Assembly (NCBI RefSeq): GCF_902498195.1
Contig: NZ_CABVIY010000003.1
Location: 620,001 to 684,000, forward strand
Reading direction: 5' to 3'
DNA: 64,000 nucleotides
Source: Pseudomonas fluorescens
Lineage (GTDB): Bacteria; Pseudomonadota; Gammaproteobacteria; Pseudomonadales; Pseudomonadaceae
Below the pieces are notes generated by a model that had not been told where the DNA came from, ran no database searches, and worked only from the letters and a program-made list of their open reading frames with translations. This document shows, piece after piece, positions 4,771 to 64,000 of the stretch; position 1 is the first letter of the stretch, and every line of letters starts with the position of its first letter. The position numbers and the translations under genes are program-made.

Positions 4771-4835
4771 CAGGCAGCCCCGGATGTGGAGTGCGAGGTG
4801 CCGACAGGCTAACCTCGCTATTCCGTCCGGCTACC

Positions 4836-16135: not shown

Positions 16136-16225
16136 CGTGCGGTGCCTGCCAGGGAATATCACAGCAGCATAGACGCCTGGGTGGCGGGTAATGCGCTTTG
16201 GATCGGGTTTGTGGGTTTGGGTGTT

Positions 16226-16977
16226 TATCCGTTTCTTCGGTAACGGCGGCTTATGGTTTCGCCCTTACGGCGAGTTACTTGGAGAAGCGCCAAGTAACCA
16301 AGCGCTCTTGCCCCTGTCGTTCGGTGCCTCGCCAGGGCTCGGCATACCCTTGCTCCGGTCCTGCTCCGTGGGCCCGCCGCCATCGGCCATCCATGGCCGG
16401 GGGCGGCTAACCCGGCATCCATGCCGGGTTGCCCACTGCGCAGAACCTGCACTCGGCCTCTCGAGGGGGCAAGAAAATCAAAAGCCAGATCAAAATCAAA
16501 AGCGAGGCGGCCTGATAGCCGACCTGATTGCAGGTCTGTCAGCGATCCCATTGTGGGAGCCAGCCTGCTGGCGATGGACTTCCAGGCAACGCGCTCATCC
16601 AGACAGGGCGCGTTATCGTTGACGTCCATCGCCGGCAGGCCAGCTCCCACAGGATTTAGGTACATTCTGAAAAGCCAGGTCGGCTGTCAGGCCGCCTCGC
16701 TTTGGATTCTGATTTTGATCTGGGCGCCCCGTTAAACCACGCTGGCCGAACGCAGGCATTGCGCAGTGGGTAAACCGGCAGGACGCCGGTTTAGCCGCGC
16801 TGGGCCAGGGATGGCCCATCGCGGCGACCCACGGAGCAATGCCTTCGATCGGGCATGCCGAGCCAGAGCGAGGCACCGAGTGGTGGGGCAAGAGCCTTTT
16901 GGTTCCTTTTGGGCTTTTCAAAAGGGACTCGCCGTAAGGGCGAAACCATCAGCCGAGGTGACTGCAGCAACGGATAT
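16226..16977. repeat. Composite fold-back repeat, copy 1
   Basis: This 0.75-kb noncoding element begins near ATCCGTTTCTTCGGTAACGG and ends with an inverted version of the same end. Other inverted pairs are TTTCGCCCTTACGGCGAGT (left) with TCGCCGTAAGGGCGAAA (right), and GAGGCGGCCTGATAGCCGAC with its complement toward the centre. A REP doublet (16552-16651) sits in the middle. A second copy in the same orientation lies at 20289-21030. Reading frames inside it differ between copies and are not supported as genes. Confidence 0.85.
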
Positions 16978-20267: not shown

Positions 20268-20288
20268 AAATTGTTTTGGATTGGGTGA

Positions 20289-21030
20289 ATATCCGTTGCT
20301 GCGGTAACGGCGGCTGGCGGTTTCGCCCTTACGGCGAGTCACTTGGAAAAGCGCCAAGTAACCAAGCGCTCTTGCCCCTGTCGTTCGGTGCCTCGCTAAG
20401 GCTCGGCATGCCCTCGTTCCGGTCCTGCTCCGTGGGCCCGCCGCCATCGGCCATCCATGGCCGGGGGCGGCTACCTCGGCATCCATGCCGAGGTGCCCAC
20501 TGCGCAGAACCTCCACTCGGCCTCTCGATGGGGCAAGAAGATCAAAAGCCAAAGCAACGCGAGGCGGCCTGATAGCCGACCTGCTTTCCCGGATGTACGC
20601 GTACCCCTGTAGGAGCGAGCCCTGCTCGCGATGAGCGCCCAGACACCGCGTTCATTCAGACCGCGCGCGTTATCGTTGACGACCATCGCGAGCAGGCTCG
20701 CTCCTACAGGGGATTGCGTACACCAGCCAAAGTCAGGTCGGCTTTAAGGCCGCCTCGCTTTGGTTTTTGATCTGGGGCGCCCCGTTAAACCACGATGGCC
20801 GAACGCAGGCATTGCGCAGTGGGGAAACCGGCAGGACGCCGGTTTAGCCGCGCTGGGCCAGGGATGGCCCATCGCGGCGACCCACGGAGCAATGCCTTCG
20901 TTCGGGCATGCCGAGCCTAAGCGAGGCACCGAGTGGTGGGGCAAGAGCCCTTTGCTTCCTTTGGGGCTTTTCCAAAGGGAGTCGCCGTAAGGGCGAAACC
21001 CTAAGTAGCCATCACAAAAATAATGGATAT
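20289..21030. repeat. Composite fold-back repeat, copy 2
   Basis: This is the second copy of the element at 16226-16977, in the same orientation and about 0.74 kb long. It shares most of the left arm (ACTTGGAAAAGCGCCAAGTA, CCATCCATGGCCGGGGGCGG) and the right arm (AACCGGCAGGACGCCGGTTT). Its centre holds a different REP doublet (20608-20708, GTAGGAGCGAGC type). It fills the gap between the SnoaL-like gene and the convergent acyl-CoA dehydrogenase. Confidence 0.85.
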
Positions 21031-44807: not shown

Positions 44808-44965
44808 TTACGGATTAGATTCATCATTTTTCTGGCTAACCATCGCCTGATTGCTCTCAATTGCCTTAGCCGCCGCTTGCCTTCCTTGCTTCGTTAGGTC
44901 AATGCCGATGACTTTGATGGCCTCCATATCAGGAAATCTGGGAGCAGTAGCCACCCAGCTACAGT
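44808..44965 (-). pseudogene. C-terminal fragment of a large NTPase-nuclease homologue
   Basis: About 50 codons on the minus strand (WVATAPRFPDMEAIKVIGID then LTKQGRQAAAKAIESNQAMV, stop at 44808-44810) are clearly homologous to the C-terminus of the 1447-aa protein at 54000 (HWLVIASRFPNVEDIKIIGI, LTKRGGVAAIKAIEANQAEA). Nothing further upstream on the minus strand matches, so only the tail survives. It is a trace of a second copy of that system 9 kb away. Confidence 0.8.
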
Positions 44966-45085: not shown

Positions 45086-45222
45086 ATGTCTATCAGCGCC
45101 ATTGTGAAGCGGTTGCAGGAAGCAAAGCACGTAGTTGTATTCACCGGCGCCGGCGTATAAGCAGAGAGTGGCATCCCTACCTTCCGAGATGCGCTAACGG
45201 GTCTCTGGGACTATCGGGTTAA
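45086..45222 (+). pseudogene. 5' fragment of a sirtuin (SIR2/CobB-like) with internal stop
   Basis: Translation from ATG 45086 gives MSISAIVKRLQEAKHVVVFT then GAGV, a TAA (45158-45160), then AESGIPTFRDALTGLWDYRV. This is the NAD-binding start of a sirtuin in which the expected Ser codon (TCA) has become TAA. Homology ends near 45222, so about 200 residues are lost. The gene is dead twice over. Confidence 0.85.
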
Positions 45223-45403: not shown

Positions 45404-46411
45404 TCACTCCGTGATGGATTTTTTTTCGTGTGAAAGTTGGTGCAGCTTTTGCCGCAGTTGGTCGACCTCATACTGAGACGTTTCCAGTAGCACCTGCGCA
45501 TTCTTAGCTCGTGTCTCGGCCTGGGTGGCGGATTCGCGTAGGGAGGCTGACTCTTCTCGGGAATGAGCAAGCTGATCGATAAGCTGCTCCTTGGCGCCCT
45601 CCTCTCTAGCTGACGCGATGGCCAAGGTATTAAGGTCTGCAGTAAGCCGCGAAATGGTGCCGTCTTGGGTGGCCATAACCTTGGTTTGCTGACGGGATTC
45701 ACTGAGCAGACGCTCATTGTCTCGATTCAAACGGCTGAGTTCGTCCTGCTTCACCGAAAGAGTCTGCTGCAACTGACGATGCTCAACCTGGATTTGTTGA
45801 AGCTGCCCTTCATGACGTCGCTGTTCTTGTTCACGCTGATCTTTCATGGCCGTGCGGTAGTGCTCGAGTGCATCGCGAGCATGCAGGTGCTTTTCTTCAA
45901 GTGAACGAATCTGCTCGTCTTTCTCGTGCACCCGCACTTCCAGGTCGGCGCAGTTCTGGCTCAAGCGGGCGTTGCGAGTGAGCTCAGATTGCAAGCTGCT
46001 TTGGCACGTACTCAATTCGCCTGCCTGGACATCGAGCGCTGCCTGAAGGTTGTCGTGCTGGCGCTGTAACTCCGCCAAGGCAGCTTGTGCCTGCGCGAGC
46101 TGTTCATTGACTGAAGCTCGGTGCTTATCGAGTTCAGCACGAGCTTCGGCGATTTCTTCTGCGCCCTCCTCCAGCAAACGCCCCAGCAACTGGCCAACCA
46201 GTCCACTGAGCTCATCACTCAAGCGTTCACGGCGTTCGTTTGGGCGAGGCTCCACTTTCTCGAGTTCGCCCAGATAGCGGGCAATGGTCGTCATCGATCC
46301 CGTATTTCCCAGCTCGACCCGCACCGCATTTATGCTCGGATTTACACCTCGAGCAATCAGCGCATCTCGTGCTATCTGGACGATTGCCCTGTTAATACCG
46401 CCGCGCGCCAT
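45404..46411 (-). CDS. tnpT: TnpT-like coiled-coil DNA-binding protein (KfrA_N domain)
   Basis: This 335-aa protein has an N-terminal KfrA-type helix-turn-helix (residues 1-60, IVQIARDALIARGVNPSINA) followed by about 260 residues of continuous coiled coil rich in Q, E, R and L. Size, layout and divergence from a tyrosine recombinase match TnpT of Tn4651. There TnpT assists TnpS in resolving cointegrates at the rst site between the two genes. A stand-alone KfrA-like regulator is the alternative. Confidence 0.78.
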   Translation of the reverse strand: MARGGINRAIVQIARDALIARGVNPSINAVRVELGNTGSMTTIARYLGELEKVEPRPNERRERLSDELSGLVGQLLGRLLEEGAEEIAEARAELDKHRASVNEQLAQAQAALAELQRQHDNLQAALDVQAGELSTCQSSLQSELTRNARLSQNCADLEVRVHEKDEQIRSLEEKHLHARDALEHYRTAMKDQREQEQRRHEGQLQQIQVEHRQLQQTLSVKQDELSRLNRDNERLLSESRQQTKVMATQDGTISRLTADLNTLAIASAREEGAKEQLIDQLAHSREESASLRESATQAETRAKNAQVLLETSQYEVDQLRQKLHQLSHEKKSITE

Positions 46412-46589: not shown

Positions 46590-47537
46590 ATGAACAAGGC
46601 TGATCGGTACCTACAGGCCGGCACCCGGGAAAACACCCGGCGTAGCTACCGCGCCGCGGTGGAACACTTCGAAGTCACTTGGGGAGGGTTTCTGCCTGCG
46701 ACTGGCGATGGCATCGTTCGCTACCTGGCCGAGTACGCGGACAAGCACACCATCAGCACTCTGAAGCAGCGCCTGGCTGCCCTGGCTCAGTGGCACATCA
46801 CGCAGGGGTTTCCTGATCCAACGAAAGCGCCCAACGTGCGGCAGGTGCTCAAGGGCATCCGGACATTGCATCCGGCTCAAGAAAAGCAGGCGGCCCCTCT
46901 CCTCCTCACTCACCTGGAGCAAGCTGTGAGCTGGCTTGAGCGCGAAGCAAATCTTGCCGCTGAGCGGAATGACTACCGAAGCGTGATGAAATGTCGACGC
47001 GACATAGCCTTGGTGTTGATTGGTTTTTGGCGAGGGTTTCGCGGGGACGAACTGGCACGACTACAAGTCGAGCATACTCAAGCGGAGACCGGCGCCGGCA
47101 TCACCTTCTATTTGCCTTACACCAAAGGCGATCGACAGCACCAGGGGACGACGTTCCATACCCCTGCCCTCAAGAAACTATGTCCTGTGCAGGCTTACAT
47201 GAACTGGATCACAGTGGCCGGCATTGCTCACGGCCCCGTCTTTAGGAAGATCGATCGCTGGGGCAACCTTGCTGACGACGGCATCAACTCCAACAGTCTG
47301 ATCCCAATGCTGCGTCGCATATTTACGCAGGCAGGTGTGCCATCGGACATTTACAGTAGCCACTCAATGCGGCGTGGGTTTGCCACTTGGGCTTCCGCTA
47401 ATGGTTGGGATATCAAGTCGCTGATGAGCTATGTTGGCTGGAAGGACATCAAGTCAGCGTTGAGGTACGTTGATGCGGGCTCCTCTTTTGGCGGCCTTGC
47501 GATGAGGCCTCCTTCGCCCAAAATGGAGCTCCTTTAA
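46590..47537 (+). CDS. tnpS: TnpS-like tyrosine recombinase (cointegrate resolvase)
   Basis: This 315-aa recombinase keeps the full catalytic set: R151 (GFRGDELARL), K179 (YTKGD), H258-x2-R261 (HSMRRGF), W284 and the nucleophile Y293 (LRYVD). Length and arrangement match TnpS of Tn4651 (about 320 aa), which resolves transposition cointegrates at rst. The gene looks intact and starts behind AAGGGGCTGT. No Tn3-family TnpA or 38-bp terminal repeats were recognised in the window. Confidence 0.82.
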   Translation: MNKADRYLQAGTRENTRRSYRAAVEHFEVTWGGFLPATGDGIVRYLAEYADKHTISTLKQRLAALAQWHITQGFPDPTKAPNVRQVLKGIRTLHPAQEKQAAPLLLTHLEQAVSWLEREANLAAERNDYRSVMKCRRDIALVLIGFWRGFRGDELARLQVEHTQAETGAGITFYLPYTKGDRQHQGTTFHTPALKKLCPVQAYMNWITVAGIAHGPVFRKIDRWGNLADDGINSNSLIPMLRRIFTQAGVPSDIYSSHSMRRGFATWASANGWDIKSLMSYVGWKDIKSALRYVDAGSSFGGLAMRPPSPKMELL

Positions 47538-48422: not shown

Positions 48423-49562
48423 ATGACACCGGATCAAGAAAGCCAGATTGACGACACATCGAAATTCAAGACTTACGACATAGCTAGTAAATCTAAACGC
48501 GAGCAGTTCGATAAATTGAATAATGAAGAACTCCATATTTGGCTCAGCAAGGAGCAAAATTACTGGAGTGAAATTGATAAAACACTTAAGCATCAAAAGA
48601 GCAGCAATCAAATAGTAGCAACTCACTCATCGGTCATTGAAAGTGTGACCAATTATCTAAACACGCTGCAGAGACTTAACAAAACACTTGAGTCTACTGC
48701 CTTGTTCTCGACGCCGGATAGTTCCCAGTTTGATACGTCCGACCTTGTGAGTGACTTGTTTGACTTTGACTTCCCCCATCATGATGACCCGTTAGCTGGA
48801 GAGTTTAAAAATGCATGTCACTCCGGCGAGACTGCATCGGTTCTTTACACGTACCGAGCGCTTTCCAAGCATCCTGAGAAGCACTATTTAAGAGGCTTTG
48901 ATGAAGGCGTCTCAAAAAACCTGAAAGCGGTTTCTGGAGCTGTAGATAACAAAGCAGCGGAAACTTTAGCCAAAATAAAAACTAAGGAGGGGGAACTAAG
49001 TGAAAAAATAAAGAGTGCCGAAGAAACTATTTCAAAAATTGTCGAGGCCGCCACTTCTGCCATTGCACTTTCGGAACCTGTAAAGTTTTGGGATGATCGC
49101 AAAAACGTTCACAACATTAACGCAAAAAAGTACGGCAAGTACGCTTCACGTTCTGCCGTCATATTTTCAACACTCCTTGTGCTCATAGTTCTATATGAGT
49201 ATATGTCAGGAGTACCCCATGCAGTATTTGGATACGAGTTCACTCTTCCAAAAACCTTGTCCGGGATAGCTATCATCCTTCTCATTTCAACTGGTGGCAT
49301 CTGGAGTACGAGAATTTTCGTAAAGCTGATGATGGCGAATCTCACTATGGAAACCGAATCCATAGAGCGCGCCACCATGATCAAAACGTTCGTTGCAATG
49401 AAGGCTGCAGAATCTTCGATCGCCAAAGAGGCGGAGCTGCTCTTCTACACTACACTTTTTCGCCCCTCCAATAATGTGATTAGTGAAGATTCAACAGCCC
49501 CCGAGTTTGGTAAAATCCTAGATGCGATTCTGAAAACCAAACCAGAAAAAGCAGCAGGTTAA
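48423..49562 (+). CDS. Coiled-coil membrane protein, DUF6161-like
   Basis: This 379-aa protein has a hydrophilic, partly coiled N-terminal 235 residues, with a heptad-rich stretch (TLAKIKTKEGELSEKIKSAE) near residue 190. Two membrane segments follow near residues 245-260 (SAVIFSTLLVLIVLYEYM) and 280-298 (LSGIAIILLISTGGIW). The cytoplasmic tail has ETESIERATMIKTFVAMKAA. It recalls DUF6161 proteins, whose role is unknown to me. The low GC and its place in an island suggest horizontal transfer. A membrane effector of a defence system is possible but unproven. Confidence 0.55.
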   Translation: MTPDQESQIDDTSKFKTYDIASKSKREQFDKLNNEELHIWLSKEQNYWSEIDKTLKHQKSSNQIVATHSSVIESVTNYLNTLQRLNKTLESTALFSTPDSSQFDTSDLVSDLFDFDFPHHDDPLAGEFKNACHSGETASVLYTYRALSKHPEKHYLRGFDEGVSKNLKAVSGAVDNKAAETLAKIKTKEGELSEKIKSAEETISKIVEAATSAIALSEPVKFWDDRKNVHNINAKKYGKYASRSAVIFSTLLVLIVLYEYMSGVPHAVFGYEFTLPKTLSGIAIILLISTGGIWSTRIFVKLMMANLTMETESIERATMIKTFVAMKAAESSIAKEAELLFYTTLFRPSNNVISEDSTAPEFGKILDAILKTKPEKAAG

Positions 49563-49910: not shown

Positions 49911-50372
49911 TCACACAAAAACGCCCCTCTCCAGCTGGCCGATAAGGTCGACAACAGCTTTCGTTTCTACCCTCGTCCCCAGCATGTCGATTGGGCGCTT
50001 CGATCCGAGCCCTTGAACCGGCAAACTCATCCATTCCGTTGCAGCGGCCCTATCGTTTGCGAATAGGCAGAGTGCTTCCTGAAAGACGGCTACCAGTGCG
50101 ACGAGGCGGTCACTTTCTGCGGAATTGAACCGCCCTGCTTTAGCTCTACGCACCAACGTCGAAGGTGCTACGCAAATAGCCTTGGAGATTACGCCTCGTT
50201 GAACCTGTAGGAGGTTCGCTATTCGCTCAAGGTACTTGAATGGCAGTCCTTCGTGAACTAGGTCATGAAGCATGGTGCCACGTGAAGGCAGCCCGAGGAT
50301 CATCCAGATGCTCTGTGAGATCTGTGGCACTGGTTGGTACCCCTTGATTGATGACAGCACTTTCATCTCCAT
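49911..50372 (-). CDS. MbcA/ParS/Xre-type antitoxin (DUF2384), no toxin partner
   Basis: This 153-aa protein has a helix-turn-helix part (VQRGVISKAICVAPSTLVRR) and a C-terminal toxin-binding domain (AESDRLVALVAVFQEALCLF, then a repeat ending PIDMLGTRVETKAVVDLIGQL), the pattern of Xre-like antitoxins paired with RES toxins. The start at 50372 follows TGAGG; upstream in-frame codons to 50435 are less likely. The expected RES toxin directly downstream (below 49911) is absent. A decayed copy lies at 52530-52844. Confidence 0.75.
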   Translation of the reverse strand: MEMKVLSSIKGYQPVPQISQSIWMILGLPSRGTMLHDLVHEGLPFKYLERIANLLQVQRGVISKAICVAPSTLVRRAKAGRFNSAESDRLVALVAVFQEALCLFANDRAAATEWMSLPVQGLGSKRPIDMLGTRVETKAVVDLIGQLERGVFV

Positions 50373-50465
50373 CTGAAAAACCTCAGGCCAGCCGGGCCAA
50401 GGGCCCGAATCAGCGACATACCCTCTCGGCAACAAACATCGCTTTACGACTTACGAAAGCAGAGC

Positions 50466-50774: not shown

Positions 50775-51659
50775 ATGACTGAGCACTGGCTCCACCCAAC
50801 CCTCCCCGATTCGATTCCTCCATCGACACTGGCGCGAGCAGATGAGCTTGTAAAAAAGACTGCCTTCCTCGCTGGCCTGGTCGCACCAGAGACCGCTGCG
50901 TGTTTGAGCGACCTGCTGAAAGTCACTGACGCTCATCACTCAAGCGTGATTGATGGGAACACTTCTAAGCGAGAGGTTTTGAATCGGGCGTTCGTACTTG
51001 AGCACCATCAGAGCGCCTTTGGTGAAATCCCGGAGCTTCGTCGACGTGTCGTTGCGGTCTTGTGTCAACACTTCCAGCTTCTCTATAGGCCAACGCACCG
51101 TGATGGCATCCGGGCTTTTGCGCGGGCGCTTACATTCGAGCACCTCGCACTGCTTGGACTTCAGCCACATCTGTGGTCTTTTTCGTGGGGCCCGGGACGA
51201 AGGATCGACGAGTATCGGTCTGCTACAGGCATGAATGATCCCAAGGAGACTGATGGGCTTGAGGGTGCTCAACAATCAAAAGACAGAGAGCAACGCGCTT
51301 TCATCGACTTTATGCTTGATGTCTGCCATGACGAGGTGAATTACATGACTACCGCTTTGAGTCGTCACCAGCTTCGTGAGTCCGTTACACACGTGTACAG
51401 AACAAACTCGCGATTTACGGAAGCAGGCGTCAGCCCAGACACGATGCCTGCGCTCCTATCGCTGTTAGTCCAGGGCTCACTACCCCGCGCCGAATTCGTA
51501 ACCTTCACCGGCCTTCCACGTGCAGCAGCGAATGATCAACTCAACAGGCTGCTCAAGCTCGGTATAGTGGTGACCCCGCCATCTAACTTTCAACGGCTGG
51601 AGGTCGGCTTGCCATCTTGGCTCGCACAGGATCTCTTTCCTGATTTCCATTTAGAATGA
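50775..51659 (+). CDS. Fic-family protein with degenerate active site
   Basis: This 294-aa protein aligns with the C-terminal half of Fic/winged-helix proteins (LWSFSWGPGRRIDEYRSA, FIDFMLDVCHDEVNYMT, LPRAEFVTFTGLPRAAANDQ as the helix-turn-helix). At the Fic loop the expected HPFxxGNGR reads RPTHRDGIR (residues 105-113), so the catalytic His and the Asn are lost. The inhibitory-type motif is SSVIDG (residues 56-61) with Asp for Glu. The N-terminal Fic part is shortened by about 100 residues. AMPylation activity is unlikely. It may be a pseudoenzyme or a DNA-binding remnant. Confidence 0.65.
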   Translation: MTEHWLHPTLPDSIPPSTLARADELVKKTAFLAGLVAPETAACLSDLLKVTDAHHSSVIDGNTSKREVLNRAFVLEHHQSAFGEIPELRRRVVAVLCQHFQLLYRPTHRDGIRAFARALTFEHLALLGLQPHLWSFSWGPGRRIDEYRSATGMNDPKETDGLEGAQQSKDREQRAFIDFMLDVCHDEVNYMTTALSRHQLRESVTHVYRTNSRFTEAGVSPDTMPALLSLLVQGSLPRAEFVTFTGLPRAAANDQLNRLLKLGIVVTPPSNFQRLEVGLPSWLAQDLFPDFHLE

Positions 51660-52529: not shown

Positions 52530-52844
52530 CTAAACAAATAAAAGCTTTCTTAAGATCGCTATAAATGTAATCTGCCGGCCGCTTTCTAGGGGAGCCCTCC
52601 TAGTTTCGCCCTTCGTGGCGACATTGTGGGTGACATACAAATTGCCTCGGAAACACCCCCGCCGCACCTGTAGAAAACTCGCTATAGTGGACGGGGGTTC
52701 AAAAGGCGATCCTTCGTGAAATTGGTAAAGAAGCCTGGTACCGTGTGACGGCAACCCGAGGGGCATCCAAATACTCGGCGGGATCAGGGGCCTTGGTTGG
52801 TATTCCTTGATTGATGTCACCACGTAGTCGTCAAGTCGATCCAA
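52530..52844 (-). pseudogene. Decayed copy of the MbcA/Xre antitoxin
   Basis: The frame begins like the intact antitoxin at 49911: TSIKEYQPRPLIPPSIWMPL against SSIKGYQPVPQISQSIWMIL, then GLPSHGTRLLYQFHEGSPFE and FLQVRRG. After about residue 65 the reading is garbled (apparent small indels) and the toxin-binding domain is missing. It lies between two paralogous hypothetical genes on the same strand. Confidence 0.75.
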
Positions 52845-53999: not shown

Positions 54000-56900
54000 T
54001 TATGTACCGTCGATCTGGCTAGCCTCCGCCTGATTGGCTTCGATGGCTTTGATCGCAGCCACTCCTCCTCGCTTGGTGAGGTCTATGCCGATGATCTTGA
54101 TGTCCTCGACGTTAGGAAACCTCGAAGCGATAACCAACCAGTGTTCTTGCAATGCGATTACTAGATCATTAAACCCGACCCGGCCTTTGGTGGGCGTCTC
54201 CCATGTCGCCTGCCCCCCATGGTTGACCAGCAAAAATATGCCGCAGCTTGAGCTTATATCGCGGAGGTAATCCCCGCAGAGTTGGTTCTCGAGTCGTTCG
54301 AAATGCCCGGGGCCGCTCCAGTTTTGTGAAAGCTTAAGCTCGACAGGCACGGGCGCGTAGTTCTGGCTGTTTTGGAATCGATAATCAGGGCGCTTGTCAT
54401 CGGCAAGCTGCTCTTCCTGCGGTACGACGTAGCGTCCCGCAGCACGATCCCTCAACCACTTACCGATGAACTTACGAATGGACGTCTCCTGATTAGTCTG
54501 GAGCAAAATCTCTGCATAGCTGGAGTCGCTATCTTCTAAATCGTGCTTTAAGTCCAGAAGACGATCGATTGCAAGATTCCAGAGGTCACGGTGGGTGGAT
54601 GGCGTGCTTTCCAGTGACTTATGAAATTCGACGACCTTCGATGGTTCCCACGGAGGCGTCTGCGAGTCGGCCGTAGCCTTCTGCTGAGCGTAGAATGCGC
54701 TCCAGGGACGTAATCGCTCCGCAGGGTGGGCCTGTGCGATTTCCTGCAATGCTAGGAATGATTCCTTCCCAGGCGTCTCTCGGATAAAGGCTAAAAGCCC
54801 GTCACGAGCATTCTGGGCATCGTCCCTGGGTCCTGGCGAATAGACTCCTTTTCCTGCACGGTCAATGTCTTCTGCAATACGTATGTATGTGTGCATCAGC
54901 AGATACAGCGATTTGGCATGCTCAACCGTTTTGTAATTCTGCCGACAACGGCTGGAAGTGCGGCTTCCAACAATGGCGACTAGGCAGAGCATGGCAAATT
55001 TGGCTTTTTCCTCATCTGAGGATAACGAGTCGATGCGAGCTGCTAGTGCCGGGATTGCAAGTACCGGCTCCACTCCAACCCACACGGCGTACCAGGTGAG
55101 CGCAATCTCCGCATTGACCTCTTCTACAGCATGCTTGCTGGCGAGCTCGGCCAGAACCTCATCAACGACCGACGACTCCTGCACAATGCTCAGCACAAGC
55201 TGGAGCGACTCAAGGTCGTTTATGTGCTGTGCCAGCCGCACCATGAGCGGAGCAGCAAGCTCCTCGCACATCCAACTCCCACCCCAACGCAGTCTCTGTA
55301 ACACACGATTGCCGCCTGACTCCAAACGCGGCACATCTAACTCGTAGTTGATTTCACGCAGTACGACTTCTTGGATAACACGCGGGTATAGGCTGAAAAG
55401 CTTGGGAAGCCACTCCGGAAAGCCGTTTAGCTCAAGCAGCCCATAGCGAGCTGCATACAGAGCGTTATCAGCGGACATCTGCGAGAAGCGGGATGGCTCC
55501 TCTTTGGCCTCAATAGCTAACCCCGTCAACCCAAAAATCACCTGATAGGGGGTGGAGTTGGCAGCAGCCCCCTCCGATGGCAGCGTCGGGCAATATCCCC
55601 GCCAAAAACTAACAGCACCGGTACGAAACGCTTGAGCAACAGGCATGCCGAACTCAGTTATGAGAGACTGCCAATTACCACTGCTCCAAGTATTTGAAGG
55701 GGATGAACCCTCACGCATCTGATCCATTAGATAAGCTTGGCTTCGAGTCATTACTCCTGGCTCGGGGCTGTTTATCAGGGCCACATCAGAGGCAAGCCCC
55801 TCCCGCCAAGAGCGACGATGCTCTAACTCTTCCGCTTTTCGCTGGGCTGCGTCCTCTTTCCACTGAGCCTGCTGGATCTCCCACTCCTCAACTTCACGCT
55901 CGGGTGGGTTCAAGAGAATTTCAAGCTTCTCGCGTAGCTCGTCGTGCGTTTCAGCTGCTTGCCTGAGCTGAATCTCCCAAGAGGATGGTTTGTCATGCTT
56001 CGTGTAAATGTTGTAAGCCATACTGAGCGCCATCAGGCGATCATGCATATTCGTGAGGTTAGCGATGTGGTCGCAGGCGAGGCTAAAGTTTTGGCTATTC
56101 AACGACCAGAATGGCCGGAAACCAAGCAACTGCCAGACGTTAATTACAGGTTCCCGATGTACTCGGCCGTCACGAGCTAGTCTAACGTCATACCAGAACA
56201 GCTTGTAATCAAGCTCCGGCCAAGTAGGCACGATCTCCCGGAGTTTTTCTCCGAGCTCTCGAGTATCTCGCTCATCATAAATGTGCGCTTGGGCCAGCTT
56301 GCTCAGAATCGCGAGGGCCGAGTCATCAAGCGCAAACGGGTCTCGTGCCTGGAGCAAACGGAGCACTGCCATACCAGCTATCTCGGCTAGCCAGCCGTAC
56401 CTTTTAGAAATAGCGCTGAAACCGTGCTGTTCAGTTGGAGGCTTGTCCAAAAGCACACCGAGCTCGCATATTAGGGCTGGCAGGTTTTCTAGCGGACAAT
56501 CCATCGCCAGGGAAGAAAGCTTCAACGCTAGGGCATCTCTACCGCTATAGCGCTCCTTCTTCGCACTTCTCTCGATTGCCTTTAGTAGCCAAGGAAGCCA
56601 TTGAGTATCGAGCGCAAGCCCATCAAGCAGCTCAGCTAACAATTCCCGGTTAACTTTGGAGTCTCCTGCCAGCAACGCTAGGCGCACATCGGCTACATCT
56701 AGGGCAGTTCCCAGGTCGATAACAGCTCGGATTGCTGCCAAACGAGTATGTTTGTGCTGAGCATTGAGGGCAAATTGCTTAGTCTCTGCAAGTGCCCCCA
56801 CCACCTCACCCTGCCATATCATTCTTAAAAGGAACCAGGCAATGTCATCGTTGGTACGGTAAAGCGTCAGTAATTCTTTGATGTCTTCAGTGAGGTCGTG

Positions 56901-58343
56901 GTGCGCGAATCGCTGTACAGCTGAAAAGTCAGTCATCGTCCAACTGTGAGCCGGCTGCGCCAAGTGCTCGCACGCTTTACGCAGTACTCTCTGACGTGTA
57001 CTCAGTGGAAGCTGTCCAGGATCGCCTCCCTCAAAAAATACTTCCGGAGCAACCTCCTCTAGCCGTTTACAAATGGACTCATCCAACAGCGCCAGCCAGG
57101 GCAAAACTGGACGCATCGAAGGATTGATAACCTCTAGCCCGTATTGTGTGCAGAAGAACAAGTTCTCGATTTTGACCCGCGAACCTGCGCCACGTATCAG
57201 CTCGTGAAGCCATTCCGCTGTTAGATACTCTCGGACAGTGCGATGGTGGAAACGAACCGTTCCATAGATGCCCGGCTCGAAAATTGGTCGATTCAGCAAA
57301 GCTGCTGATTCTGTGTCATTCCAATCCGTCAGCACGTCGCGAATGGGAATCCCCCTTTTATTGGTCTCACCGTCAGGAGGGACGCGGATCGCAGACGTTT
57401 GCCCTAATGTTGTTGCTGCTGCAATTAGGCGCACACCTTCTCTGAGCCTATCTGGAGCAATTGGTCTAGATTCGGCGCGATCTTGGTCATGCTCTTCAAG
57501 GCGGCGATTAATGCTGCTTTTCATGAGTTCCAAGCGCGAGCCTATTCGATGGTGCTCGAGCCAAAAATCGACGAGTTCCAAGAAGTCCAGAGGGCGCGTG
57601 GTTAGCGACCATGCTTCCTTGCGCTCAACTGCGGAACGAAACCCTTTGATGTCTTGGACGCCAGTGGCATTTAAGAAGCGATCAATCTGCTCGTCATGGA
57701 TGTCGTCCAGCGTCACCAAGAGGAACGACGTATCTGGCTCGGTTTTGTCTGTAACCGTTTGCACAACGTGCACAAAACCATCAGTAATTTTGGAAGATGT
57801 TTGCCGAGCTACGGGCCCAAAAGCAAAAGCCTTTTCACAGATCGCAAGATCCGTCTTTGCGCGCCACGCTGTGCTTCGTCCAGTGATGATTATGTGCGCT
57901 CGGGTCAGAGCGTTTTGGGTCAATCGGCCAAGTTTTCGGATCGCACGCTCGAAATCCTTCGGATCATTTAACCGAGCCTCGTCGACTGAATCCATAAGGA
58001 GCCAGCCCTCTGCATCTGAAGAGAGCCAGCTCTCAAACTCATCAAACGTCCCCACCTCGAAGGAGTCCTCCAAGTCTGAAGTGACGTTCTCAATACGAAG
58101 AAAGAAAGAAGTTTTGCCTTGGCTCCGGAGCTGGCAAGCGACGTTTCGGATCTCAGCAGTTTTACCTGATCCCGCCTCGGACAGCAGTATCACCCGATTA
58201 TGAGTTAGCAAGTCAGGCCAGTGGAGCTCTCCCTGCCGGCTATGCCTACCGCTTAGGTCGACATCGTCAGACGCATCAGCATCTAGAGATATTTTGGAGA
58301 ACGTGCGATCGAGGTCAATGAAGTCGTCCGAGTGCATGGCCAT
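54000..58343 (-). CDS. Large NTPase fused to a C-terminal PD-(D/E)XK nuclease, putative antiphage protein
   Basis: This protein of about 1447 aa begins with a short leader, then a P-loop NTPase (Walker A SEAGSGKT near residue 60, Walker B WLLMDSVDEA near residue 118, HIIITGRS near residue 150 like a NACHT/STAND sensor). A long helical middle of about 1000 residues follows. The last 130 residues hold a nuclease-like core: D in KRPDYRF, then VPVELKLS (E-x-K) and a Q-x4-Y-like ENQLCGDYL. Such sensor-nuclease architectures are common in phage defence (Avs-like), but this exact family is not recognised. The start is ATG 58343; TTG 58355 and ATG 58337 are alternatives. A C-terminal fragment of a second copy lies at 44808-44965. 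Confidence 0.72.
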   Translation of the reverse strand: MAMHSDDFIDLDRTFSKISLDADASDDVDLSGRHSRQGELHWPDLLTHNRVILLSEAGSGKTAEIRNVACQLRSQGKTSFFLRIENVTSDLEDSFEVGTFDEFESWLSSDAEGWLLMDSVDEARLNDPKDFERAIRKLGRLTQNALTRAHIIITGRSTAWRAKTDLAICEKAFAFGPVARQTSSKITDGFVHVVQTVTDKTEPDTSFLLVTLDDIHDEQIDRFLNATGVQDIKGFRSAVERKEAWSLTTRPLDFLELVDFWLEHHRIGSRLELMKSSINRRLEEHDQDRAESRPIAPDRLREGVRLIAAATTLGQTSAIRVPPDGETNKRGIPIRDVLTDWNDTESAALLNRPIFEPGIYGTVRFHHRTVREYLTAEWLHELIRGAGSRVKIENLFFCTQYGLEVINPSMRPVLPWLALLDESICKRLEEVAPEVFFEGGDPGQLPLSTRQRVLRKACEHLAQPAHSWTMTDFSAVQRFAHHDLTEDIKELLTLYRTNDDIAWFLLRMIWQGEVVGALAETKQFALNAQHKHTRLAAIRAVIDLGTALDVADVRLALLAGDSKVNRELLAELLDGLALDTQWLPWLLKAIERSAKKERYSGRDALALKLSSLAMDCPLENLPALICELGVLLDKPPTEQHGFSAISKRYGWLAEIAGMAVLRLLQARDPFALDDSALAILSKLAQAHIYDERDTRELGEKLREIVPTWPELDYKLFWYDVRLARDGRVHREPVINVWQLLGFRPFWSLNSQNFSLACDHIANLTNMHDRLMALSMAYNIYTKHDKPSSWEIQLRQAAETHDELREKLEILLNPPEREVEEWEIQQAQWKEDAAQRKAEELEHRRSWREGLASDVALINSPEPGVMTRSQAYLMDQMREGSSPSNTWSSGNWQSLITEFGMPVAQAFRTGAVSFWRGYCPTLPSEGAAANSTPYQVIFGLTGLAIEAKEEPSRFSQMSADNALYAARYGLLELNGFPEWLPKLFSLYPRVIQEVVLREINYELDVPRLESGGNRVLQRLRWGGSWMCEELAAPLMVRLAQHINDLESLQLVLSIVQESSVVDEVLAELASKHAVEEVNAEIALTWYAVWVGVEPVLAIPALAARIDSLSSDEEKAKFAMLCLVAIVGSRTSSRCRQNYKTVEHAKSLYLLMHTYIRIAEDIDRAGKGVYSPGPRDDAQNARDGLLAFIRETPGKESFLALQEIAQAHPAERLRPWSAFYAQQKATADSQTPPWEPSKVVEFHKSLESTPSTHRDLWNLAIDRLLDLKHDLEDSDSSYAEILLQTNQETSIRKFIGKWLRDRAAGRYVVPQEEQLADDKRPDYRFQNSQNYAPVPVELKLSQNWSGPGHFERLENQLCGDYLRDISSSCGIFLLVNHGGQATWETPTKGRVGFNDLVIALQEHWLVIASRFPNVEDIKIIGIDLTKRGGVAAIKAIEANQAEASQIDGT

Positions 58344-58439
58344 AGTGAGTCTCAAGGCAGGTCAGGAGCAGTCCCGACGCGGGCTGCTGAGGCTCTACCA
58401 TCGTACTCGAAATGCCATCTCCGCCGGCGACCTGTGCTG

Positions 58440-58658: not shown

Positions 58659-59330
58659 ATGAAGAATGTCCGACTAATCCGCCACGGAGAAAGTGCTGCC
58701 AACGCTGGCAAAGCCAGCCTGGATCACGCGACCATTCCTCTCACGCCGAAAGGTGTTGAGCAAGCATATCTGGTGGCCCAGTCATTCAACCATGCTCCCG
58801 CTCTCATAGTCGCTTCCCCGTTCTTTCGAGCGCAGGTAACCGCAACGGCGACCGTAGCTGCCTTCCCTGCTACCCCGCTTGAAACTTGGCCCATTCATGA
58901 GTTTACGTACCTTGAACCAGCAAGGTGCGCCAACACAACTGTTGCGCAGAGGCAAAATTGGGTGGAGGCATATTGGGCCAAGTCAGACCCCACGTTCAGG
59001 GATGGTGCGGGCGCGGAGTCATTCATGGATTTCATATTTAGAGTCCAGTCGTTCCTGGATCAACTCGCAAAGCATCCCGCCCAAGACATCGCAGTATTTT
59101 CGCATGGGCAGTTCATCAATGCTGTTGCTTGGTTGATCGAGCGAAAGCCGGAGACCATTGATGGCCGAGCTATGGCGGACTGGCGCGAATACGAGATCAC
59201 GAACCCTGTGCCCAACTGTTGTGGGTACCTGCTAAGCAGGCGCCCCGCCGATGATACTTGGCGAATATGCCCTCAAGTGGGCCCAGATGGTTCGTGCTCA
59301 AAACTCGTTCTGTCGCCATTTGGGAAATGA
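58659..59330 (+). CDS. Histidine phosphatase superfamily protein
   Basis: This 223-aa protein has the phosphohistidine motif LIRHGESAAN at the N-terminus, an Arg in ASPFFRAQVTA, Glu in the central part and the second His in FSHGQFINAV. It is a phosphoglycerate-mutase-like phosphatase. The substrate is unknown. It sits between two nuclease genes in the island, so nucleotide or signal turnover in defence is possible. The ribosome site is weak. Confidence 0.78.
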   Translation: MKNVRLIRHGESAANAGKASLDHATIPLTPKGVEQAYLVAQSFNHAPALIVASPFFRAQVTATATVAAFPATPLETWPIHEFTYLEPARCANTTVAQRQNWVEAYWAKSDPTFRDGAGAESFMDFIFRVQSFLDQLAKHPAQDIAVFSHGQFINAVAWLIERKPETIDGRAMADWREYEITNPVPNCCGYLLSRRPADDTWRICPQVGPDGSCSKLVLSPFGK

Positions 59331-59361: not shown

Positions 59362-60528
59362 CTAGTTACTTTCTTCCTCGGCCTGGAAGATTTCGATGAG
59401 TTTCTGATTGTAGTCATCCAGGTAGCTCTGAAGACCATCCCGGTCGATCAGCCGCACACCAGCCGTGCTGGCCAATTCCTTTGCAGACTTCGTGTAGTAC
59501 GAGTTGGTAACCACCATGGCCTCGTCGCATCCGTAGAAAGCCTTGGCAGAAATGGCTTGCTGGACAGCTGCGTTACCTACAGACCCGGAATAATTTTTTG
59601 CCTGGATCACCATGTTTTTGCCGAAGCGACTAACGAAAAGATCGGCACCTTGATCAGCAGTCTTTTTGGTCTCTTTAACGTCATAGCCAATAGTCTGAAA
59701 AATCTCGACCAGGAAGGCTTCAAACTGAAATCCGTCCATTGCATCCACCAGGTACATGGTGATGAACTGGTTCGGATTGAAATGCTCGAGTTGTGATCCC
59801 AACCGCTCGACGAGGATATCGAAATAGATTTCCTCACATAGGCTCAAGCCATTCCGAAAAACCTGTAGCGGAAGCAGCGGTACGCCAGATGTGGAGGCTG
59901 CTTGGAGAGTGAATTGGACATTGGGAAATGGGACGTCATTTTCCCAGAGGTAGTAGTAGAACAAGGCCAGGTCAGACCTGAACGTTGTACCAGCCTCTTC
60001 AATCCAGGAACGTAAGGTGTCGGCTAGATCAGCTCGAATGTGACGGGTCAGCTCTCTTGAAAAACCAAGATACGCAGAGTTGAAAGCTGTGGTCTGCAGC
60101 AGTTTGTCCAAGAGAGATGGAAGCCCTTCAAGCTCGTCAAAGCCTTTGCGGATCAAGACTTCCCTGAACAGCTCTCTTTCGCTGTACACACCATCCAATC
60201 GCGGGCCAGGCGCCCCTGTGCCATCGCTAGTGCCTGTGCTTTCACGGGTGGTGTGAATGAAGTTCGTGAAGTAAGGCTGCTTCAGCTCCGAATATTTTCT
60301 CAACACGTTGTTTAGGAGATCGTTGAGCTGCGCTTGCTCCTTCTTTTTGCCGAAGAAATCTTGAATCAAGCCCTTGGATCTGTATTGAAAGTCTGGATAA
60401 AAAGAAGGATCCAGAGGAGTGAGGTGCCGCAACGTGAGCTCTGATGATGGCGAAACTTGAGAGCCCATGCACCACGGGCACGCTATCTCAAACGTAGTTC
60501 TGTTGCATCCGTTGCACTGGTAAATCAT
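59362..60528 (-). CDS. Mrr-type restriction endonuclease with N-terminal zinc ribbon
   Basis: This 388-aa protein starts with a zinc ribbon (C5-x2-C8, C17-x2-C20), has a helical middle of about 240 residues and ends with an Mrr-catalytic PD-(D/E)XK domain (from about residue 264): FEAFLVEIFQTIGYDV, D296 in DQGADLFV, Q309-x-K311 in VIQAKNY, and SAKAFYGCDEAMVVTNS. Such type IV enzymes cut modified DNA. The extended middle is not recognised and may sense the target. The start at 60528 follows AAAGGAAT. Confidence 0.78.
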   Translation of the reverse strand: MIYQCNGCNRTTFEIACPWCMGSQVSPSSELTLRHLTPLDPSFYPDFQYRSKGLIQDFFGKKKEQAQLNDLLNNVLRKYSELKQPYFTNFIHTTRESTGTSDGTGAPGPRLDGVYSERELFREVLIRKGFDELEGLPSLLDKLLQTTAFNSAYLGFSRELTRHIRADLADTLRSWIEEAGTTFRSDLALFYYYLWENDVPFPNVQFTLQAASTSGVPLLPLQVFRNGLSLCEEIYFDILVERLGSQLEHFNPNQFITMYLVDAMDGFQFEAFLVEIFQTIGYDVKETKKTADQGADLFVSRFGKNMVIQAKNYSGSVGNAAVQQAISAKAFYGCDEAMVVTNSYYTKSAKELASTAGVRLIDRDGLQSYLDDYNQKLIEIFQAEEESN

Positions 60529-62490: not shown

Positions 62491-63345
62491 TTAGAATACG
62501 CTTGAGCAGAAACGATGGTCGGTAGAAAGCGCTTGATACATCACCTTTTTCCAGTGATTTGGAAACAGTCGTGCGCTCGCCACAGAGTTTAAAAATTGCG
62601 CAAATTCCTGAGGACTTAAGTTAGCTAAAAAGCCACGCCTTTGATCGATAAGCACACCCAGCTCCTCTCCTGCTTGAATAGCATAACGCTTGCCTAAGTC
62701 GAAATCAGAAAAGTGATTTATTGCACGACTCGCATCCACTTGCGGCCATGCCTGAGGAACGCTAGTAAAAAAACGAATGTAACATGGATCTGTGTACACG
62801 ACCTCTGCCGAAACCCATTGTTCTAAAAAGAAGCGGTCTGAATCTAAATAAGGATGGATGGGCTGGCCAGCAGCATCCTGAGCCAAGCCATTACTCTTTC
62901 CGGTATTGCAATCTCTACACGATGGAATCAGATTTTGAGGATTCACAGAATACTGAGGATAGTGAGCCTTCGGCAAATAATGGTCAAGGCTTTGGGGTCT
63001 GCCAATTCCTCCGCAGTAGGGGCACTTCTCATTAGCCGCAGTTAGTATCCGATCGTAATAGTCTCGACCAGGATGGCGCTGAACCATACTGTAATCATAG
63101 AGATTGATAAGTTCACTTTTTAATAACGTTCCACACACGACAGGATCATCTCCTCTTGCAGCTAATAGCGGAGGGATGGAAAAAAGCGTACCTAAGAATG
63201 CATGGTATTGATATGCAACTGCTGCCGCCTCAATCTCGACTGATGAGTCGAGCATTCGCTGCCTGGCGAGGGGCTGCACGATAGAGTTTGCGCAGTGGGT
63301 GAAAGACTGTAGACCAGTCACTGCGGGGGGATTAATGCGATTCAA
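62491..63345 (-). CDS. ptuB: HNH nuclease, PtuB-like (Septu defence)
   Basis: This 284-aa protein contains an HNH centre with paired cysteines: CPYC (108-111), D121-H122 in LDHYLPKAHYP, NLIPSC and CRDC (143-146). It is encoded directly after an ABC-type ATPase and translation starts at TTG 63345 overlapping the ATPase stop (TTGA), behind GGAG. ATPase plus HNH nuclease in this order is the Septu (PtuAB) arrangement, also used as effector pair in some retrons. The nuclease would cut nucleic acid when phage infection is sensed. Confidence 0.75.
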   Translation of the reverse strand: MNRINPPAVTGLQSFTHCANSIVQPLARQRMLDSSVEIEAAAVAYQYHAFLGTLFSIPPLLAARGDDPVVCGTLLKSELINLYDYSMVQRHPGRDYYDRILTAANEKCPYCGGIGRPQSLDHYLPKAHYPQYSVNPQNLIPSCRDCNTGKSNGLAQDAAGQPIHPYLDSDRFFLEQWVSAEVVYTDPCYIRFFTSVPQAWPQVDASRAINHFSDFDLGKRYAIQAGEELGVLIDQRRGFLANLSPQEFAQFLNSVASARLFPNHWKKVMYQALSTDHRFCSSVF

Positions 63346-64000
63346 TTTCCACTCCGTGAATCTCGATACGCAACCATCGCACGCAATATTGCTTGAGCCT
63401 CAAAACCCAACTGATAACTAAACTCAGACATTATCTGGTCGAACGTCCCGCCATTTTGTACTGAGGCATCAAGAAGACTATGAAATCCTGACTTGCGTAC
63501 TTCCAAGCCGAACACTTCGCGGGTTAATACACCAACGTTTTCTCCAAATGTTTGAATTTCCGGGCGCTTTGCATCCAATACCAATCTAGACCTATTTATT
63601 TTCCATGCACATAACGTTGGAATCTCCTGCAATACTACAGGTGAGTGCGTTGCAATTATAGCCACTCCATTTCTGTCATAAAGAAGCTCACTTAGCGCTC
63701 TCAAAAAAGCAGAAAGCAGCGGTGGATGAAGGTGGCTTTCCGGTTCATCCAATAAGACTAAGGTTTTCTCTTCGACCATCGCAACGAGCTTGGTAATTGT
63801 AAGCAATACAACGGCGTGACCAGAGCTCATTCGAGACATCAATACCGCCGCCGTACTTTGGGCATCGGCCCCACTCAGCTCTAATAAAGATGGCAGACTC
63901 ATGTCTGCGAAATTCTCATCTGACTCAAGAGCAGTTATCGCTTTATGCCAGCGGCCTTTTTTCCTCGGATCACTCATACACAAGCCCAACGCACTTATGT
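63342..64000 (-). CDS. ptuA: AAA/ABC-type ATPase, PtuA-like (Septu defence), N-terminus outside window
   Basis: The frame is open to the window edge, so only the C-terminal 218 residues are seen. An ABC-type signature (SRMSSGHAVVLL), Walker B (LVLLDEPESHLHP) and the switch histidine (IIATHSPVV) are present in the order typical of PtuA/OLD-like ATPases. Walker A must lie beyond 64000. It pairs with the HNH gene. If a reverse transcriptase lies upstream, the set would be a retron instead of Septu. Confidence 0.72.
   Translation of the reverse strand, partial: ISALGLCMSDPRKKGRWHKAITALESDENFADMSLPSLLELSGADAQSTAAVLMSRMSSGHAVVLLTITKLVAMVEEKTLVLLDEPESHLHPPLLSAFLRALSELLYDRNGVAIIATHSPVVLQEIPTLCAWKINRSRLVLDAKRPEIQTFGENVGVLTREVFGLEVRKSGFHSLLDASVQNGGTFDQIMSEFSYQLGFEAQAILRAMVAYRDSRSGN

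Follow-up and report, generated by a model that had tools for sequence, protein, structure and literature searches.

Does the long minus-strand gene at positions 54000..58343 of this Pseudomonas fluorescens DNA encode a new defence protein, and how might a single protein of its layout act against phages? The window, as we use the word, is the whole 64,000-nucleotide stretch analysed (positions 620,001 to 684,000 of contig NZ_CABVIY010000003.1), and its initial annotation had described the gene product as a candidate new defence protein with a P-loop nucleoside triphosphatase (NTPase) at the N-terminus, a helical middle and a nuclease at the C-terminus. Here we assign the gene to the family HyoA, and we consider it rather probable that its product is a HyoA-type antiphage protein working as a single-gene immune receptor with a C-terminal effector, similar to signal transduction ATPases with numerous domains (STAND) and to NACHT proteins.

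Family identity of the protein

The open reading frame (ORF) proposed at this position is real and free of internal stops, with an ATG start at 58343 (1447 codons) and an in-frame TTG start four codons upstream at 58355.

54000..58343, minus strand: hyoA, encoding a 1447-amino-acid (aa) NACHT-type NTPase with a C-terminal PD-(D/E)XK-type nuclease signature (ORF and NF058534 match)

Using hmmscan against NCBIfam, the protein scored 1662.5 bits with NF058534 ("NACHT domain-containing antiphage protein HyoA"), for which the curated cut-off is 1200 bits, and the match spans residues 11-1425 of the protein and the whole of the model (1-1430 of 1430). All members of alignment A1 (20/20) match the same model at an expectation value (E) of at most 1e-10. 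Judged by this match, the window protein is a member of an already named antiphage family and is not new; a fit so far over the cut-off rules out the "new defence protein" of the initial annotation. The sister family EruA (NF058535) was also rejected as its family, with a score of 190 bits against a cut-off of 1000, and none of the families in PADLOC 2023 match the protein. No match to the protein was found in PHROGs or in a PDB sequence search, nor was one to the gene found in E. coli DNA, with 4000 of 4344 bases queried. The closest named loci are eight from Pseudomonas, at 72-92% identity. The gene is a new locus for a family already curated as antiphage, which is modest as a discovery because the family had been named before. 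A literature search for "EruA" with "phage" returned one paper, which in the part available concerns a regulator of the same name in adherent-invasive Escherichia coli, and the main text of the DefensePredictor paper (PMC13092281), as far as it was available, names neither HyoA nor EruA.

Conserved ends, a variable middle and the predicted nuclease

We aligned 46 proteins, made up of 32 HyoA-type proteins, 10 EruA proteins and 4 intermediates. Among the HyoA-type proteins, 20 score over the HyoA cut-off, 6 score under it (L034, L038 and L061-L064; L numbers denote the loci of relatives) and 6 are close Pseudomonas relatives that were not scored individually (L021-L026). Invariance was counted over the 1220 columns with at most 4 gaps, and 20 of these are invariant across all 46 proteins: 12 in residues 13-433 (R13, G60, K61, D118, D121, E122, R156, P251, F355, A376, W416 and P433), 8 in residues 1286-1368 (E1286, E1310, D1320, E1335, K1337, Q1354, Y1359 and G1368) and none between. 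Since the motifs are identical in 46/46 proteins, even in members of the sister family that share only about 15-16% identity with the window protein, they are not a product of chance, and the conservation shows which residues of HyoA and EruA to mutate. The parts of the protein are as follows.

57045..58211, minus strand: NTPase or NACHT-type switch module, residues 45-433 (NACHT-type matches and the 12 invariant columns in 13-433; its outer limit follows conservation rather than a domain model)
58158..58181, minus strand: Walker A motif SEAGSGKT, residues 55-62 (G60 and K61 in 46/46)
57978..58001, minus strand: Walker B motif of DxxDE form (LLMDSVDE), residues 115-122 (D118, D121 and E122 in 46/46)
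54525..56843, minus strand: variable, largely helical middle and proposed sensor, residues 501-1273 (pairwise identity and partial models)
54069..54524, minus strand: C-terminal nuclease-like domain, residues 1274-1425 (8 invariant residues)
54333..54341, minus strand: ELK motif (ExK), residues 1335-1337 (E1335 and K1337 invariant)

The order of NTPase, middle and nuclease given in the initial annotation was borne out, with the nuclease recognised by motif and not by fold, and the remark that this order is reversed is correct: the P-loop begins at residue 55 and the nuclease motifs lie at 1286-1359. With the P-loop starting so early there is no room for an N-terminal effector domain, and HyoA does not have the effector N-terminal of the NTPase as the bNACHT and Avs types do. 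The P-loop and hhhhDxxDE Walker B motif of NACHT and STAND NTPases are both found in HyoA (46/46), and a DxxDE Walker B is typical of NACHT proteins. Pfam searches matched residues 45-163 to PF05729 NACHT (E 0.00091), PF25199 (0.0014) and PF20720 (0.0034), each below its gathering score.

Structures were predicted with AlphaFold2 in two jobs, each on an 8-sequence alignment, covering residues 1-620 and 1000-1447; residues 621-999 lie outside both models. The N-terminal model has a mean predicted local distance difference test score (pLDDT) of 57.4. Outside the NTPase and the C-terminal ~150 residues both models are helical, at low to moderate confidence, which agrees with the helical middle first described. 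Foldseek returned no match for the N-terminal model at E <= 0.001; its best matches were NLRP2 (1.4e-3) and SAMD9 (5e-3), with Avs3 (8dgc) at 0.057, and the same list holds many other P-loop proteins and helical-repeat proteins. The chains retrieved by VIA-align were mostly helical repeats (importin, armadillo, HEAT and alpha-repeat types), with 14-3-3 also present; the best Z scores were 10.6 for the N-terminal and 9.1 for the C-terminal model, within a range deemed unspecific for helical models. The lack of a nuclease in these lists carries no weight as a test.

These results bear on whether HyoA might instead be a type IV restriction-like enzyme, recognising modified or foreign DNA directly and using its NTPase for translocation or a conformational change before cleavage, with no phage protein as trigger. 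NTPase and nuclease motifs in one chain would suit such an enzyme, as would the Mrr gene near by. However, the NTPase matches NACHT and novel STAND models, albeit below threshold, with no helicase or McrB-like model listed, the helical parts resemble scaffold-type repeats, and it is NLRP2 and SAMD9 that head the weak Foldseek list, with Avs3 further down, even though AAA+ proteins (ORC, DnaA and IstB) appear there too. We therefore regard this alternative as unlikely and retain the NACHT-like receptor as our preferred reading.

At the C-terminus, HyoA carries RPD...ELK at residues 1318-1337, and the conserved (E)..D..(D/E)xK pattern of the PD-(D/E)XK superfamily is present as E1286, D1320, E1335 and K1337 in 46/46 proteins. 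The full invariant set (E, D and ExK) is a PD-(D/E)XK signature, followed by Q..Y in the manner of several nuclease families. We infer the nuclease from these invariant motifs and not from fold, and the catalytic-motif evidence for it is strong. The elements predicted around ELK run as a helix, short strands, the strand with ELK, the helix with Q..Y and a strand, with pLDDT below 50 over residues 1274-1341. A PD-(D/E)XK core is expected to run as helix, strands, strand, helix, strand (alpha-beta-beta-beta-alpha-beta), and the predicted order fits this, at low confidence. Structure prediction of the two ends, one of the checks first suggested for this gene, thus yielded a fitting order of elements at the C-terminus but no confident fold.

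We also compared profiles, using hhalign, with 20 Mrr_cat and 5 PDDEXK_4 loci. Two motifs came into register with D1320 and ELK of the HyoA-type profile, namely D/QAK in Mrr_cat (E 0.0089, probability 4.5%) and D/ENK in PDDEXK_4 (E 0.045, probability 1.2%). As benchmarks, Mrr_cat against PDDEXK_4 gave E 0.035, and when other segments of HyoA were paired with these two families as controls, the six values spanned 0.096-0.44. A combined HyoA and EruA profile aligned in register with PDDEXK_4 (0.046). The C-terminal profile searched against PDB sequences gave five chance-like matches (best E 0.16).

Across the 32 HyoA-type proteins, pairwise identity averages 32-41% at residues 1-500 and 39% at 1301-1400, and it falls to 22-25% at 501-900 and 1001-1100. 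The middle is unevenly variable, as residues 901-1000 and 1101-1200 stand at 34-35%. In the three closest usable pairs (L026, L021 and L022, in that order throughout), the ratio of nonsynonymous to synonymous substitution rates (dN/dS) is 0.17, 0.15 and 0.14 overall, 0.22, 0.18 and 0.18 for residues 501-900, and 0.05, 0.08 and 0.08 for residues 1274-1425. Against the more distant L023 and L028 the overall values are 0.11 and 0.08, with silent sites near saturation and the nuclease ratio not computable, and the regional pattern of the three closer pairs does not recur. Selection on hyoA is purifying.

The C-terminal domain could also be an inactive or recognition-only PD-(D/E)XK fold that senses DNA or phage nucleic acid, in which case the N-terminal half would supply the output, through NTP depletion or in another way. 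That domains of this kind can lack catalysis is illustrated by the Pfam family "NACHT-associated inactive Restriction Endonuclease" (NA-iREase1), which the nearby Mrr protein matches, and the nuclease activity of HyoA is a prediction. Yet all catalytic-type residues are invariant in the 46 proteins, one would not expect D..ExK to be retained in a domain that only binds, and in the three computable pairs dN/dS is lowest in the nuclease part, though not the lowest proportion of nonsynonymous differences (pN) against L028. We hold an inactive domain to be improbable, and an active C-terminal nuclease is what we carry forward.

Genomic setting, relatives and the relic

From about 40 kb on, G+C in the window drops from 0.61-0.67 to 0.47-0.54, and hyoA lies in this part, together with a tyrosine recombinase gene and a gene for a KfrA-type protein; the region is probably a genomic island. 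The Mrr-type and PtuAB-like genes near hyoA (59362-60528 and 62491-63998) are indeed present, and the fragment of a second copy 9 kb away is real, although tiny.

44819..44958, minus strand: 3' relic of a second hyoA, covering residues ~1402-1443 (tblastn and blastn)
45404-46411: KfrA-type DNA-binding protein, low-G+C region
46590-47537: tyrosine recombinase, low-G+C region
58659-59330, plus strand: histidine-phosphatase gene adjoining hyoA, divergent
59362..60528, minus strand: Mrr_cat restriction-type endonuclease, near neighbour (PF04471, E 4.4e-28)
62491..63345, minus strand: HNH protein of the candidate system PDC-M01, PtuB-like (PDC-M01B, E 1.8e-107; HNH)
63342..63998, minus strand: PtuA-like or PDC-M01A ATPase, running off the window (PDC-M01A, E 3.5e-103; PtuA, 1.2e-94)

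The histidine-phosphatase arrangement recurs only in L027 among the loci compared. The relic, by its alignments, is the last ~140 bp of another hyoA and nothing more: tblastn placed residues 1402-1443 at 44957-44832 (42 aa, 64% identity, E 5e-10), and blastn matched 44819-44958 (about 140 bp) to L026 at 70.6% and 44819-44939 (about 120 bp) to L027 at 72.6%. The whole genome holds one hyoA by the HyoA model, and the alignment profile adds only the relic. Close to it, the 95 bp at 45114-45208 are 79% identical to L024:675-769 (minus strand), inside an ORF that looks SIR2-type as judged by eye, and this stretch may be a graveyard of old genes.

Other genes lie between the relic and hyoA. A DUF6161 protein at 48423-49562 (plus strand) has a weak AbiZ match (E 1.4e-6), making it a possible abortive-infection gene, and 50775-51659 (plus strand) weakly matches the C-terminal part of SoFic (E 1.8e-5) and has a sub-threshold MarR-like winged helix. 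An Xre/MbcA/ParS-type antitoxin gene at 49911-50435 (minus strand) has a partial second copy at 52530-52844 (minus strand; 77% identity over 122 bp), and L026 has two copies related to it, of which one comes immediately after its hyoA on the downstream side. Far from these genes, where the window is high in GC, 16214-16947 and 20278-21000 form a direct repeat with 87% identity across about 737 aligned bases; a ~105-bp piece occurs again near 4834 and 23543.

To survey the neighbourhoods of relatives, we selected 18 proteins encoded near hyoA in the 8 Pseudomonas loci and scanned them with PADLOC, and 6 matched: GajA and GajB in L023, PDC-S37/Hhe in L022, HEC-04 in L026, PDC-S58 in L028 and a RecD-like fragment in L024. 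None matched among the selected neighbours scanned from L021, L025 and L027. Known or candidate defence genes thus lie near hyoA in 4/8 Pseudomonas loci (L022, L023, L026 and L028). Ten annotated relative records were surveyed by product name, and defence-like neighbours were seen in L029 (SIR2 and an ATP-binding protein), L031 (type III restriction-modification), and L033 (SIR2; a DEAD-box helicase and an ATP-binding protein); L035 has a HEPN-domain gene. The defence setting given in the initial annotation is supported, and several relatives likewise lie beside defence genes or mobile elements.

Mobile elements recur among the relatives. An integrase is present in the stretch shown of L030 and L036, and the L039 relative adjoins one; L038 is on a contig filed as phage with mostly bacterial-type genes. 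At L040:6989-10915, a HyoA-like gene sits between the tail-fibre-assembly and portal genes of a viral contig, probably a phage cargo site, in a gene set that we take to be P2-like. A tblastn search turned up relatives on plasmids (61 records, of which 36 cover at least 80% of the query, many being near-identical plasmids of Burkholderia glumae) and on phages (2 records sharing one name). The distribution of hyoA is patchy, with hits over the HyoA cut-off in 4/194 relatives and 8/398 genomes of the phylum (the window's own genome counted in both); EruA is over its cut-off in 18/398 genomes of the window's genus. No conserved partner gene was found, as no ORF group occurs in more than three loci (20 loci and the window, 40 widest groups), with hyoA, opposite-strand ORFs inside hyoA and mobile-element ORFs set aside. 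The ORFs just downstream of hyoA at L023:14751-15659 (minus strand), L025:14828-15103 (minus strand) and L038:12637-13419 (plus strand) are related, and the one in L038 is annotated "endonuclease".

Could hyoA then be a housekeeping or decayed gene without a defence role? The L032 and L037 relatives sit among metabolic genes, the window holds the 3' relic, and the hyoA of Pseudomonas sp. dw_612 (L027:9983-14341) carries an in-frame stop near codon 132 that splits it. Set against these are the purifying selection, the patchy distribution, the plasmid-borne relatives with one as apparent phage cargo, and the curated antiphage family itself, and we give such a gene hardly any chance. A defence role remains our reading of hyoA.

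Proposed mechanism and comparison with known systems

We would like to note that a number of results weigh against HyoA as an antiphage receptor with a C-terminal nuclease. The "antiphage" label rests on NCBIfam naming, and a literature search, which did not cover preprints, brought up among the hits listed no paper that treats HyoA as an antiphage protein. The neighbour survey used selected proteins and had no background control, and in L030, L032, L034 and L037 no gene within 8 kb bears a defence name. At the N-terminus, the NACHT, nSTAND3 and nSTAND_NTPase5 matches all fall under Pfam gathering scores (19.5 bits for NACHT, where 26.7 is needed). At the C-terminus, no Pfam nuclease family was found in any of 21 segments, the model has a mean pLDDT of 67.6 but its core (1274-1341) is below 50, and Foldseek gave no match to it at E <= 0.001. 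The hhalign scores are weak, with the EruA C-terminus alone (0.28 and 0.14) no better than the controls, and the combined profile aligns to Mrr_cat out of register (E 0.039). Lastly, in the comparison with L028 the nuclease part is the most changed of the four regions (pN 0.227 versus 0.135-0.164), and in that with L023 dN/dS is lowest in the middle (0.082), with silent sites near saturation in both.

The mechanism that we regard as most likely for the receptor runs as follows. In an uninfected cell, the N-terminal NTPase would keep HyoA off. The fast-varying helical middle may recognise a phage-made or phage-altered molecule, upon which NTP binding or exchange would rearrange, and probably oligomerise, the protein. 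This rearrangement would activate the C-terminal PD-(D/E)XK nuclease to cut DNA or, less likely, RNA, and phage growth would be stopped through destruction of phage DNA or killing of the cell.

Within its own family, the window protein agrees with HyoA in full-length match, length and layout, and nothing tested differs. EruA shares the P-loop and DxxDE motifs and the C-terminal E..E..D..ExK..Q..Y, which are invariant in 10/10 EruA proteins, despite its low overall identity. The chances seem to us about even that a single widespread superfamily of reversed-polarity receptors, similar to nucleotide-binding leucine-rich repeat (NLR) proteins, has HyoA and EruA as two branches, with the switch N-terminal, a variable sensor in the middle and a nuclease effector C-terminal. 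If so, activation must pass through the sensor, unlike in bNACHT, Avs and plant or animal NLR proteins, where it passes from the NTPase to an adjacent N-terminal effector.

Mrr_cat and PDDEXK_4 nucleases resemble HyoA in having a D..(D/E/Q)xK in register, with the weak scores given above and no Pfam match. The Avs (AVAST) STAND NTPases, such as Avs3, likewise combine an NTPase, a long repeat region and a nuclease effector, with the effector N-terminal; HyoA also has the weak structural match of its N-terminal model to Avs3, and no PADLOC model matches HyoA. A further parallel is with bNACHT25 and bNACHT32 (clade 6), which, in the sections of PMC12169576 available, are bacterial antiphage proteins that, like HyoA, join a NACHT-type NTPase and a PD-(D/E)XK nuclease in one chain. 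Their order is an N-terminal PD-(D/E)XK effector, NACHT and a C-terminal sensor, whereas the nuclease motifs of HyoA are C-terminal; infection triggers degradation of plasmid DNA, and the nuclease-dead D48A change abolishes defence (PMC12169576, same sections). NACHT proteins typically activate an N-terminal effector, according to the available part of PMC13092281. Through its uncommon domain order, HyoA is well suited to the question of whether a STAND receptor requires its effector beside the NTPase.

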